IMG/VR virus record: IMGVR_UViG_3300030943_000201
Span: 1 to 20,247 of that record
Direction: 5' to 3' (one strand)
DNA: 20,247 bases
Origin: a virus
This document shows, in pieces, positions 6,250 to 20,247 of the stretch; within the stretch, counting starts at the first letter, position 1, and each line of letters begins with the position of its first letter. The notes under the pieces were generated by a model. The model made no database searches, had not been told where the DNA came from, and worked only from the letters and a program-made list of their open reading frames with translations. The translations under genes and the position numbers were made by a program.

Positions 6250-6460
6250 TGAACTCGAAAAATGCGAAAGCTATTCGCCGATCAGTTCGCAAAAATCAAA
6301 ACAAGCTTGCACTGACCATGGTCAGTGCAAGCTTGAGTACGGTTTCAAGCTGCGTTTGTCCTTCGCGTTCAATCTTCTTTGGATTCCGATCAAACGAAAG
6401 ATATTGGCGAAAATCGCTGTTTTCAAAGAGAAGCTGAAAAATGTCCCAGTGGTCGCTTGA
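6249..6460 (+). CDS. Small basic neck-region protein interrupted by a 34 bp palindrome (recoded or broken)
   Basis: ATG 6249 overlaps the previous stop by one base (TAATG). The first frame reads MNSKNAKAIRRSVRKNQNKL, a basic start typical of small phage genes at this place, then meets a perfect 34 bp palindrome at 6302-6335. After it, the first frame gives 42 unconvincing residues ending at 6437. The -1 frame gives LEYGFKLRLSFAFNLLWIP and on to a stop at 6458-6460; this looks far more protein-like. Removing 26 bases between two copies of AAGCTT (6303 and 6329) joins the two parts as a 61-residue protein. A -1 slip near 6290-6296 (C AAA AAT, 5 bases before the hairpin) would also restore the second part, giving about 70 residues. 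So the gene is either broken, an assembly or replication artefact, or recoded by bypassing or frameshifting. Confidence 0.6.
6302..6335. repeat. Perfect 34 bp palindrome
   Basis: Bases 6302-6335 equal their own reverse complement exactly. The centre is CCATGG (6316-6321). An 18-base palindrome CACTGACCATGGTCAGTG (6310-6327) is flanked by two copies of CAAGCTTG (6302-6309, 6328-6335), itself an 8-base palindrome. As RNA it can form a stem of about 15 pairs with a tiny loop. The 26-base offset between repeats is not a multiple of three. The layout of an 8-base direct repeat around a palindrome also resembles an insertion footprint with target duplication. Confidence 0.95.
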
Positions 6461-8493: not shown

Positions 8494-9084
8494 ATGAAAA
8501 AGATCATTGAAGCACCTCTGACAGTCAACGGATTCTCAAGACCTGGGAAAGAACTGCCGGAAGTGCGCGGAATCGTGATTCATTACCTCGGAAAAGCAAA
8601 ACAGACCGCAATGGAAGCCCGGGATTACTTCGAAACGCTAAAGGGGCAGGATGCCATGGATGCAATCCCGGACCGGTCGGCCTCGGCGCATTACATCATT
8701 GACCAAACAGGAGAGATAATCCGGTGTATCCCGGAAAACGAAAAGGCCTATCACGTTGGATCCGAAGTATATACCGATCTTGCTCGAAAGGTTTTCGGAA
8801 AATACGCCTCCGATCCAAAGAATATCTCACCGAACAGCTGCTCAATCGGAATTGAACTGGCCCACATCGACGATCAGGGCCGGTTCACTGTCGATACCAT
8901 AGAATCCGCGACCGGTTTATGCGCGTACCTCTGCCGGAAGTACAAACTTGATCCGGCCACGCAGATTCTCACGCACTATGAAGTTGTGGGCTGGAAAAAA
9001 TGCCCGCTATTATTCGTAACCAAGCCCGCGCTTTTTGAAGCGTTCAAGGCTGACGTCAAAATAAAGATGAAGGATGAAAACTGA
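8494..9084 (+). CDS. N-acetylmuramoyl-L-alanine amidase (Amidase_2 family), phage endolysin
   Basis: The 196-residue enzyme should cut the bond between N-acetylmuramic acid and L-alanine in peptidoglycan. Expected zinc ligands are visible: H30 in GIVIHYLG, H161 in LTHYEVVG, and C170 in KKCPLLF. SAHYIIDQTGEIIRCI (from about 64) and CSIGIELAH (116-124) are standard Amidase_2 features. There is no signal peptide and no cell-wall binding domain, so release needs a holin-type step, or the enzyme acts from the tail. Its place between tail tube and tail chaperone genes is unusual for an endolysin, which normally sits with the spanins at 19.6 kb. The start at 8494 is 3 bases after the tube stop. The gene overlaps nothing if the next start is 9086. 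Confidence 0.92.
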   Translation: MKKIIEAPLTVNGFSRPGKELPEVRGIVIHYLGKAKQTAMEARDYFETLKGQDAMDAIPDRSASAHYIIDQTGEIIRCIPENEKAYHVGSEVYTDLARKVFGKYASDPKNISPNSCSIGIELAHIDDQGRFTVDTIESATGLCAYLCRKYKLDPATQILTHYEVVGWKKCPLLFVTKPALFEAFKADVKIKMKDEN

Positions 9085-13495: not shown

Positions 13496-16400
13496 TTACA
13501 ATTTTCAGAAATCCTTTTTCTGATGAAAAAGAACAATTTGAATTCAAAGAAGCCATCGCTCTAAAAGATGCAATAATTTTCAACCATGGAAATTCAACAG
13601 TTTTTATTAATGGGATTAAACGCGACGAAAATTACATTTTGCAAAACAATGATGTATGTTTAATCCGCGAATATCCAGGTGCGGCTGTGGCTGTCGTTGC
13701 TTTTGTATTTAAGATAATTGTTATCGGTGGTGCTTTTATTGCTGCCGACCTGATCACATACGGTATTTCTGGAAAACACATCTGGGAACATTTTGTTTCA
13801 TGGATGAAAGGAATTTTAACTCCTGACACATCCGATACGAGCTCGCTTGAAAAAATACCTCAACTCAGAGGAGCAAAAAATCAATCCGGATTAGGGATGT
13901 CGGTACCGCTCATACTTGGTAAACATCTTTTTACACCGTATTATTGCGGAAGCCCATATACCTGGATTGATCCGACTGATGGCAGTGATGGTGAAAACCA
14001 ATATTTCATCGGTCTATACATGCTGGGATATTCCAATATTAAGGTATCGCAATTACAGTTGGGAGATCTACTGCTTGCAAGTAATGATGTCGGCGTATTC
14101 AATGGCTTTATCTCCCCTGATGGTTTATATCCTTATGCGGATGATGGAACTCGAAAAGGATATAGAACTCAGATTGAAATTCAACAATCTAATGAAGTAT
14201 CTCTCTATACCCAAAAAGTAATTGAAGAACAGCTAAGTATTGAACTATATAATGTCGCGACGGAAGTTGGTCCGAGTAATCCGATTAGATTCAGTGCTAA
14301 CAACCCAATGAAAATCGAATTGGAAATACTTTTTAATAACGGCCTTTATGGAAATAGTAGTAACGGTGATATAGAGAACAGATCCGTAATGGTCAGGGCT
14401 CAGTGGAGGCCATTAAGTAGTCCGGGGGATGATCCGGATACGGGATGGACCAATTTTCCTTCTTTTCATGGATCTACTAGTTATAATGCTGTTACCGGAA
14501 CAAGCACATTTACTCGAAATAAAAACAAGCAAGCCCGTTTTGTATCAATCTATGAATTTGAATATTCAGAAATAACGGCTGTTCCGGAAGGTGTTGTCGA
14601 ACTAAGAATGACTCGAATGAATCATCAGGCCAACGACAATCGATCCGCCGATACAATAATTTGGTCAGCGATTCGAACATATTGTTTTGATAAATCGAAA
14701 TCAAAAACAGAACTTTCACTCATACCTCAAGTTCCTTTGATCGAAAAAACAAGACAGATCACCTGCCGTATTGGTTTCAAGATTCGGGCCGGTGATGAAA
14801 TAGCAGGAACAATTTCTAAGTTTAATATGATTCTCGAATCTGTTGCGCGCACCTGGTCAGGATCATCGTGGACGACCATGGCTGATGCGAAAACATCCGG
14901 AACGGTCTCGAATAATCCCGCCTCAGCAGCATTACTGGGCCTCCAGCAGCCATCGATGGGTAAAGAGCCATACCTTGATTCTGAACTCGATATGAATGCG
15001 TTTGGGGCTCTTTATACCTTTTGTGCGACGAAAGGATTTACGTGCAACGCAGGAATAACCGCTGATACTAAGGAGAGAGATCTAGTTGATCAGATATTAA
15101 CAACCTGTCGATCTCAATTAATCATTCGGGATGGAAAGTATGCTCCCCTGATCGATAATGAACGTTCATATCCGGTAACCGTTTTGAATCAACAAAATAC
15201 AATATCGGCAACCAACACCAAGACCTTTGATATTTTGCCGGATGGATTAAAAATAACTTTTATTGATGAAGCCGATGGATATCAAACAAACGAAATGTAC
15301 GTCATGTACGACGGAAAGTTATCTGAAGATCCGGACATGGTTTTTCAGGATATTGAGCTTCCGTTTATAACCAATCGAAATCATATTTTTAAGCAAGGTC
15401 GATACATTCTTGCCTGCATGAAACTGCGGCCCGAAGTTTGGTCAAGAAAAGTGTCCCTTGAAGGGTATAATATTCCTATTGGTTCACTTATTTCTGTTCA
15501 GGATGAAACTATTTCCGTTGGCTTGAATGAAGGTGGCATTATCACGGAATTGATCACTTCCGGAGGATTTATTACCGGAATCGTGTGTGATTCATTTTTC
15601 GAAATGGCCGATGGGCTTCAATATGGTATTAAAATTATTCAGGCTGATGGATATTCAAACCCATCTGTCCGGACTCAGCAGGTAATTACTTTTATCGGTT
15701 ATGTGAACTCATTTACCTTTACAGTACCCATACCCGTAATTGATTCCATTCGCCCTTCCATTGATGATATCGTCACTTTTGGTGAATACTCAAAAATCGC
15801 AATTGATGCCCTGGTGGTAGGAAAAACTCCTGGTGATGATCAGACGTTCGATTTGATACTGGTTCCTTATGATCCTGCAATTTATACGGCTGACTCCGGA
15901 CCGATGCCGGAATTTGATTCGAAAACTAGTAAGCCATTATCAATGTCCGCGATCATTCAATACCCACCACATTATGCCTCAATTGATGATATTGGCGCTG
16001 CTGTTGAGATTATAAGTAACGGAACGAATGATTCAATTCCCGATACGATTGATTCCGTTATGGTAACCGCCCGACAAGACTATCTTGAAATTTCATGGCC
16101 GTGGAGCGGGGCGGGCCTGGATAATGTTCTGAAACGGTTTATTATTCAGATCTCCGATGATACCGGCGCATCCTGGTGGACTCTTTATAGTACGAAAAAC
16201 GGGTTCAATTATTATTTTAATCGCAATACTGATGGTTATCCAGAGGTTTCAGATCTTTCATCATGGCGAGTACGGGTAAAAGCAGAAAACCTGCATAATA
16301 AAGTTTCGCTCGACTATTCCCCGAGCTCTTCAGGTCAACCCGTAAATACGGTTAATTATGGAACCTGGATTCCTCCTGTACCTACCGTCTCTCCATACTG

Positions 16401-18928: not shown

Positions 18929-19612
18929 ATGACTTTAACAGGAATACCGGTAGTCGGTTGGGGAGTAATTGCGTTCATCGGATTACTCGTATTTATTTTG
19001 CTGATGAAAAAAGGATTCAAAGCAGGGATTGGAGACAAAACCATTGAAGTACCGGGCTCCGATGGTGAGAAGCAAAACGTCGACAGTCAGGGCCTCATGT
19101 ATATCATGAGCGATAACTGCCGGCAGATCGAGCAACGTAAAAAAGAAAGGATCGATGGTATCATCCCTGATCTTACCTATCGTCTGAGCGATATCAGTTC
19201 GACCTCGTGCCTTGGCCTGCTGGTTGAATCGATTCTCCAAGCTCGGCGCCGGAAGAACGGTTTTGAAAAACTGATCACCGAGAAGCTTTTCAAGGATTAC
19301 GTGTGGGATGTTTCCGGGGAGATCAATGGTAAAGTTAAAAAGGAGACCGCGAAGGTTATTGAGTGCTCGAAACTCCCGGTCCAGAACTGTGACGCCGATG
19401 CCGTTACCGAGATCGTTCATCGGTTCACGCTCGATGCCGTAAAAGCCTGTGTCGATGAGTACCGGGATAAATCGACAATGTACTCCCAGTACATGCCGAT
19501 GTACGAGATCCTCAAGGATAAGAACCGGGTGGCGTTCTGCAAACAGAAAATCGAGAAACACGATGAACGTATCGCAGAACTGGAAACAATGATCGCAAAG
19601 ATCGAGGGGTGA
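18929..19612 (+). CDS. Unrecognised phage membrane protein with one N-terminal membrane segment
   Basis: ATG 18929 has AAGGGGAGGG upstream. The gene follows 100 bases without a gene, in which I see no clear promoter or terminator. Residues about 8-27 (VVGWGVIAFIGLLVFILLMK) form one membrane segment; the rest (to 227) is charged, mainly helical, and cytoplasmic if the usual positive-inside rule holds, since KKGFK follows it. Six cysteines are scattered (SDNCRQ, TSCLG, IECSK, QNCDAD, KACVD, AFCKQ). The end is a coiled coil (KQKIEKHDERIAELETMIAK). I do not recognise a family. Its stop overlaps the GTGA at the spanin-like genes, so it may belong to the lysis unit, but it does not look like a typical small holin. 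Confidence 0.75.
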   Translation: MTLTGIPVVGWGVIAFIGLLVFILLMKKGFKAGIGDKTIEVPGSDGEKQNVDSQGLMYIMSDNCRQIEQRKKERIDGIIPDLTYRLSDISSTSCLGLLVESILQARRRKNGFEKLITEKLFKDYVWDVSGEINGKVKKETAKVIECSKLPVQNCDADAVTEIVHRFTLDAVKACVDEYRDKSTMYSQYMPMYEILKDKNRVAFCKQKIEKHDERIAELETMIAKIEG

Positions 19613-19614
19613 CG

Positions 19615-20085
19615 ATGTGCAAAAAATACTTTTTTGTGTTATGTGCCTTATTTTGTTTGTTGGCTGCCAATCTGCCGGCCGAGCCGTGGTTCCGGATATC
19701 GGGGATGGAGTTAACCAGGCTCGAAACGATATCGCAGACCTGGCAGCAGGACAAACAAACCTGGCTCTCGCAGGTGAGCGTATTGAAGACCATAGCGCAG
19801 GACTTGCAAGCGGAATCGACGAGCTTGAACAGTCAATTATCTCAGGAACGGACGAAAACGCAGTCCTTGAGGAAATCATTCGAGCAGTCAGAAACCGACC
19901 GATTGACGCAAGCCAGTAACTACGAAACCGAAATTGCTGATTTGAAGGCGGGGAAGGCGAGGGTAGAGATCGAGGTACTTAGGGTGAAGAATCAGCGTAA
20001 CGTGCTGTTTTCTATTCTGACGCTGATTGGAATTTTGGTTACGGTAATAATCATCGCGCGGATCCGCGGGCTGATAAAATTATAA
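19615..20085 (+). CDS. i-spanin-like protein: signal peptide, coiled coil, C-terminal membrane segment
   Basis: I prefer ATG 19615 (MCKKYFFVLCALFCLLAA) to GTG 19609. The hydrophobic start ends near NLPAEP, a plausible signal-peptidase site. Residues about 30-125 are a long helix rich in Q, E, S and K (LSQVSVLKTIAQDLQAES), and 131-150 are a C-terminal membrane segment (LFSILTLIGILVTVIIIA) followed by RIRGLIKL. The membrane anchor plus periplasmic coiled coil fits the inner-membrane part of a spanin pair, which fuses inner and outer membranes at lysis. Topology is reversed from classical Rz, whose anchor is N-terminal. A lipoprotein gene is fully nested within it in another frame. Function is inferred. 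Confidence 0.72.
   Translation: MCKKYFFVLCALFCLLAANLPAEPWFRISGMELTRLETISQTWQQDKQTWLSQVSVLKTIAQDLQAESTSLNSQLSQERTKTQSLRKSFEQSETDRLTQASNYETEIADLKAGKARVEIEVLRVKNQRNVLFSILTLIGILVTVIIIARIRGLIKL
19617..19919 (+). CDS. o-spanin-like lipoprotein nested in the i-spanin-like gene
   Basis: GTG 19617 starts two bases after the ATG of the longer gene, the two starts overlapping as ATGTG. AGGGGTGA at 19606-19612 is 4 bases upstream. The 100-residue protein begins MQKILFCVMCLILFVGCQSAG: charged start, hydrophobic run, then a lipobox-like FVGC with C17 as the probable lipid-carrying residue. The mature part is helical and acidic-basic mixed (QARNDIADLAAGQ, LEEIIRAVRNRPIDASQ). Nested Rz/Rz1 pairs are classical in lambda, but there Rz1 starts well inside Rz. 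The T-rich start makes hydrophobic sequence likely in any frame, so part of the match could be chance; the long helix-like remainder argues against that. Confidence 0.65.
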   Translation: MQKILFCVMCLILFVGCQSAGRAVVPDIGDGVNQARNDIADLAAGQTNLALAGERIEDHSAGLASGIDELEQSIISGTDENAVLEEIIRAVRNRPIDASQ

Positions 20086-20099
20086 ATCCTGCAATGGTA

Positions 20100-20247
20100 T
20101 CAATCGCAGCTGTTTTTGAATTTCTCATATTCTGAAACAAGATCTGCTTTTGATGCCATTTGTAAAATATCATCTTCTTTATCTAAGTAAATTACTTCGC
20201 CATGCATTCCAAGATAGAAATTTGTTGGTAAATCACCAAACAATACG
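20100..20247 (-). CDS. C-terminal part of an unrecognised minus-strand gene (start outside window)
   Basis: Read from the right edge leftwards, a frame is open for 48 residues to a stop at 20100-20102: GDLPTNFYLGMHGEVIYLD, DDILQMASKADLVSEYEKF, KNSCD. The last part is helical, the first beta-like. It is the only minus-strand gene here, and converges on the lysis genes with a gap of only 14 bases and no visible terminator. AT-rich composition differs from the lysis genes. It may be an accessory phage gene or host DNA past the phage. No function is claimed. Confidence 0.65.
   Translation of the reverse strand, partial: VLFGDLPTNFYLGMHGEVIYLDKEDDILQMASKADLVSEYEKFKNSCD

Follow-up and report, generated by a model that had tools for sequence, protein, structure and literature searches.

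The last plus-strand locus of the window (the 20,247-base stretch analysed here, which is the whole virus record of an uncultured phage) very likely encodes two proteins in overlapping reading frames, both begun at a single AUGUG sequence. A 156-residue protein is encoded by the longer frame, and a frame of 100 codons for a lipoprotein lies entirely inside it (Table 1). At the level of sequence, coding and helix signals are present in both frames, and the start site and lipobox are in place. Our best guess from these features, held with modest confidence, is that the pair is a spanin whose inner-membrane partner is inverted. That such a split, inverted two-component spanin represents a third spanin layout, with a C-terminal inner anchor and a subunit ratio set by ambiguous AUGUG initiation, is a more tentative proposal, to which we give slightly less than an even chance.

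Table 1. Positions of the two-frame locus and associated features in the window
Feature	Position	Strand	Basis or remark
Endolysin-type amidase	8494..9084	+	Amidase_2; phrog_9611
Upstream 227-aa protein	18929..19612	+	N-terminal TM segment
Shared Shine-Dalgarno region GAGGGGUGA	19604..19612	+	Duplex with E. coli anti-SD
AUGUG, overlapping starts of two frames	19615..19619	+	Sequence; precedent in PMC9841429
Long ORF, 156 aa, proposed inverted i-spanin-like subunit	19615..20085	+	ATG to stop
Predicted signal peptide, residues 1-22 (...ANLPA/EPW)	19615..19680	+	Sequence, AlphaFold; putative cleavage
Helical, coiled-coil-like region, residues 30-128, no Cys	19702..19998	+	AlphaFold, helix periodicity
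C-terminal TM segment VLFSILTLIGILVTVIIIA, residues 130-148	20002..20058	+	Hydropathy
Nested lipoprotein ORF, 100 aa, +2 frame of long ORF, proposed o-spanin-like subunit	19617..19919	+	
Lipobox FVGC	19656..19667	+	Sequence

Overlapping starts share one ribosome-binding region

The start region reads GAUCGAGGGGUGACG-AUGUG, in which the AUG (19615-19617) of the long frame and the GUG (19617-19619) of the nested frame overlap; in its frame, no other start lies between the GTG and the preceding stop. The original prediction had placed both starts behind one ribosome-binding region, and the coordinates and sequence were correct, with a strong Shine-Dalgarno region shared by the two. The duplex calculated for this region was -12.5 kcal/mol, the second strongest of 15 window genes tested, with an E. 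coli anti-Shine-Dalgarno sequence that may not be that of the host. Under the same E. coli assumption, the aligned spacing by the best duplex was approximately 12 to 13 nt to the AUG and 14 to 15 nt to the GUG, or 15 and 17 nt when GAGG alone was paired. The TGA (19610-19612) that ends the upstream 227-aa gene lies 2 nt before the AUG and shares bases with the pair's Shine-Dalgarno region. Since this UGA falls inside the ribosome-binding site, reinitiation may contribute to translation of the pair.

Kohl et al. studied sites of this kind in E. coli, combining reporters, both in vitro and in vivo, with toeprinting (PMC9841429). At an aligned spacing of 12/14 both frames were translated and the AUG was favoured, by 2-to-3-fold at pqiA, and longer spacing left only residual use of the GUG (PMC9841429). 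Because of this behaviour at 12/14, it is plausible that both starts are used here and that the lipoprotein would be the minor product, provided that the host ribosome is E. coli-like. The idea that start choice sets the stoichiometry of the pair is consistent with the published behaviour of AUGUG, from which the ratio at this locus would have to be extrapolated. The locus resembles the E. coli sites, such as pqiA (PMC9841429), in its overlapping starts and its single strong Shine-Dalgarno sequence, and perhaps in its spacing, which is near 12/14 by the best duplex and longer if GAGG alone pairs, but differs in that the second frame is a 100-aa phage ORF with an export signal and a coding signature.

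Both frames carry a coding signal

Coding potential was measured with a codon-usage score trained on this phage's own genes. Over residues 23-100 the nested frame scored 0.19 (gene median, 0.22), which exceeded all 14,958 sense off-frame windows of the phage's genes (maximum, 0.055); antisense frames can score up to 0.28. Past the nested stop the score in that frame dropped to about -0.5. The long frame scored -0.004 in the overlap, where the 99th percentile of off-frame windows was about -0.05 and two other open off-frame stretches matched its score. After the overlap it scored from about 0.0 to 0.12, remaining coding-like to 20085, with the other two frames mostly far below.

One protein was then held fixed while synonymous codons were shuffled, either among its own codons or according to the codon usage of the window. 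When the long protein was fixed, the nested frame stayed open for 100 codons in 0.8 to 0.9% of own-codon shuffles and in 0.15% with window usage; an open frame, the coding score and heptad periodicity were obtained jointly in 2 of 150,000 shuffles. When the lipoprotein was fixed, the long frame was open, began with a signal-like N-terminus and equalled the helix periodicity in 77 of 100,000 own-codon shuffles and in 0 of 100,000 with window codon usage. The statistical strength is in the joint test and not in single features. Since shuffles that preserve one protein rarely reproduce the other, neither frame is a by-product of the other. The claim that two exported proteins are made from one start site is thus well supported by the coding scores, the shuffle tests and the documented AUGUG mechanism (PMC9841429).

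We considered the possibility that translation is limited to one frame and that the second is incidental. A single T-rich stretch encodes both hydrophobic N-termini and would do so whatever the frame, so that two signal sequences in overlapping frames are a cheap coincidence, and +1-frame open stretches of at least 80 codons are not rare, there being 11 in this phage's main genes. The nested frame nevertheless outscored every sense off-frame window, and the long frame, besides surpassing nearly all shuffles, continues for 55 further coding-like codons, including the TM segment, beyond the nested stop. Translation of a single frame is very improbable indeed.

A second possibility is that a unimolecular spanin, like T1 gp11, was broken by one indel, through assembly error or mutation, in which case the 5' end of the lipoprotein frame and the TM segment of the long frame would belong to one protein. 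The nested coding signal does stop near the nested stop codon while the long frame goes on with a TM segment, as in the order of a u-spanin, and the absence of Cys is typical of u-spanins (PMC6139136). The locus is also covered by a single record, the phage's other two records ending short of it. However, the portion of the long frame that lies upstream should then be noise, and yet it is open and has a signal sequence and helix periodicity, a combination reached in only 0 to 77 per 100,000 shuffles. That periodicity persists beyond the nested stop, drifting modestly in phase, and so argues against a single gene that was broken. Moreover, the interval 19860-19919 is without a long homopolymer, and known u-spanins are mostly beta (PMC6139136). 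A broken gene is improbable on this evidence.

Predicted architecture of the two proteins

The nested protein reads MQKILFCVMCLILFVG/CQSA and contains ...LILFVGC, with Cys17 as the predicted lipidation site and a Gln at the +2 residue that is compatible with sorting to the outer membrane. It has the lipoprotein signal and lipobox of an o-spanin, and FVGC is listed among o-spanin lipoboxes (Kongari et al., PMC6139136). AlphaFold modelled helices at residues 26-76 and 80-92 (block pLDDT, about 62 to 85).

The long protein runs from MCKKYFFVLCALFCLLAANLPA/EPW... through a Cys-free helical region to the TM segment, followed by RIRGLIKL. A single-sequence AlphaFold model gave a helix at residues 3-18, a break at 19-29 and one continuous helix at 30-155 (block pLDDT, 80 to 98), which together with the helix periodicity agrees with the helical periplasmic domain of i-spanins. 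The proposed layout, a signal peptide, coiled coil and far-end membrane anchor in one frame and a lipoprotein with FVGC in the other, was found in the sequence as predicted. An N-terminal TMD is the defining feature of i-spanins (PMC6139136), whereas here the anchor is C-terminal and the N-terminal segment is signal-peptide-like. Because positive charges flank the C-terminal TM segment on both sides, its orientation is assigned from the N-terminal signal.

If the N-terminal hydrophobic segment were retained, the long protein would be an i-spanin anchored at the N-terminus, as is usual, and again at the C-terminus. The first segment is TM-like by hydropathy, and a TMD at this end is the mark of an i-spanin (PMC6139136). 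It is short, however (about 14 to 16 residues), and is followed by LPA/E, which appears to be a plausible signal peptidase site; retention is decidedly improbable.

Comparison with known spanins and proposed mode of action

As in lambda Rz/Rz1, the entire lipoprotein gene is enclosed by a gene for a helical periplasmic protein with a membrane anchor. In the embedded class the o-spanin is in the +1 frame of the i-spanin (PMC3556154), whereas the nested gene here starts 2 nt after the outer start, in the +2 frame. The pair differs from Rz/Rz1 also in its C-terminal anchor, in the lack of a periplasmic Cys and in a lipoprotein that is not Pro-rich. At least one periplasmic Cys is present in 507 of 528 two-component spanin pairs; in this pair the lipobox Cys is the only Cys outside the signal sequences. 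Similarity to the unimolecular spanin T1 gp11 extends to an exported N-terminus, a C-terminal inner-membrane anchor and the absence of a periplasmic Cys. In contrast to gp11, the lipid anchor belongs to a second protein, read in a different frame, so that lipobox and C-terminal TMD are not in one polypeptide, and the domain is helical rather than beta.

The pair was not filed in the two-component family, since several of the defining features tested were absent. A spanin-like working is proposed because a locus that encodes a lipoprotein together with a periplasmic helix anchored in the membrane shows the pattern of two-component spanins; that the pair is a spanin at all is plausible. We infer the following sequence of events. 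One ribosome-binding site and the AUGUG start would serve both frames. Initiation at the AUG would give the 156-residue protein, which would be exported, would probably lose its signal peptide, and would then cross the periplasm as a long helix whose C-terminal segment anchors it in the inner membrane. Initiation at the GUG, 2 nt downstream, would give the 100-residue lipoprotein, whose heptad-repeat helix would be held at the outer membrane. The two proteins would pair through their helices in the periplasm and, once endolysin had removed the cell wall, would disrupt the outer membrane in the manner of a two-component spanin. The polarity of the inner subunit would be opposite to that of Rz, with a free N-terminus instead of a C-terminus toward the outer membrane.

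The two-component spanins surveyed in PMC6139136 keep the inner anchor N-terminal, and no i-spanin with a C-terminal anchor was found in the open papers searched. If the inverted pair is real, inner subunits are not bound to one polarity, and the arrangement resembles an intermediate stage between two-component and unimolecular spanins, two groups whose relationship is still an open question. The locus would, in addition, be a natural example from a phage in which AUGUG ambiguity yields two functional, interacting proteins; within PMC9841429, such ambiguity has been shown with reporters and E. coli start sites only.

Gene context and search for relatives

The window holds the structural half of a tailed phage, with genes for portal, head morphogenesis protein, major capsid, tail proteins, a tape measure, an NlpC/P60 protein and a 1780-aa tail-tip protein. 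Another record of this phage, IMGVR_UViG_3300028857_000015 (L118; 38.8 kb), adds upstream sequence and ends at window base 15925. The amidase endolysin gene lies about 10.5 kb from the pair, in no shared cassette; its position is between the tail tube and tape-measure genes, outside any lysis cassette. No holin was recognised.

Counting against a spanin, then, are the distance from the endolysin, the lack of a recognised holin or homologue and the lack of a periplasmic Cys. We considered whether both frames might be real and exported and the pair yet serve another purpose, for example as a module for envelope functions or exclusion that closes the late operon. Accessory genes commonly occupy the last position in a tail operon. 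The pair does not adjoin the endolysin, matches no family and, unlike most two-component spanins, is without a periplasmic Cys. Against such a module, a lipoprotein paired with a membrane-anchored helix at one locus is a spanin hallmark, and the approximately 43 kb of this phage hold no other spanin candidate. Such a role is unlikely, though it deserves serious consideration.

Family-library searches gave no match for the proteins of the pair or for the 227-aa protein, and neither a Foldseek comparison with viral models nor a PDB sequence search gave anything significant. The long ORF, the nested ORF and the 227-aa protein had no relatives among IMG/VR viral contigs or phages, nor did the long ORF among plasmids or the 227-aa protein among genome contigs and 22 related viral records. 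Searches of 247 genomes from the Geobacteraceae-locus phylum, 398 from the Dokdonella-locus phylum and 289 from the Opitutaceae-locus phylum likewise gave no relative of the 227-aa or the nested protein. Three weak matches in the genomes of the Geobacteraceae-locus phylum were attributed to chance. In 1.8 Mb of fetched loci, this locus was the sole occurrence of the two-frame layout. Relatives by major capsid diverge before the lysis region, and one of them carries an Rz/Rz1-like pair of the classical kind, anchored N-terminally.

Other features of this phage were also observed. On the minus strand at 20100-20246 of the window, the record end truncates a convergent ORF, whose final part (VLFGDLPTNFYLGMHGEVIYLDKEDD...NSCD) had no Pfam match. 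The only other lipoprotein found in the approximately 43 kb, in which no second spanin-like pair was seen, is a Phage_VG64 family lipoprotein (PF25682; E value, 9e-48) at L118 17363-17767. A single 1174-aa ORF at L118 10007-13531 fuses SbcD-like and SbcC-like domains, with Leptospira phage LE1 among its best matches, and the ParB of this phage resembles those of Variovorax and Acidovorax phages. Between two head-tail genes, window positions 6302-6335 form a perfect 34-nt palindrome, CAAGCTTGCACTGACCATGGTCAGTGCAAGCTTG, which could be a putative hairpin or binding site.
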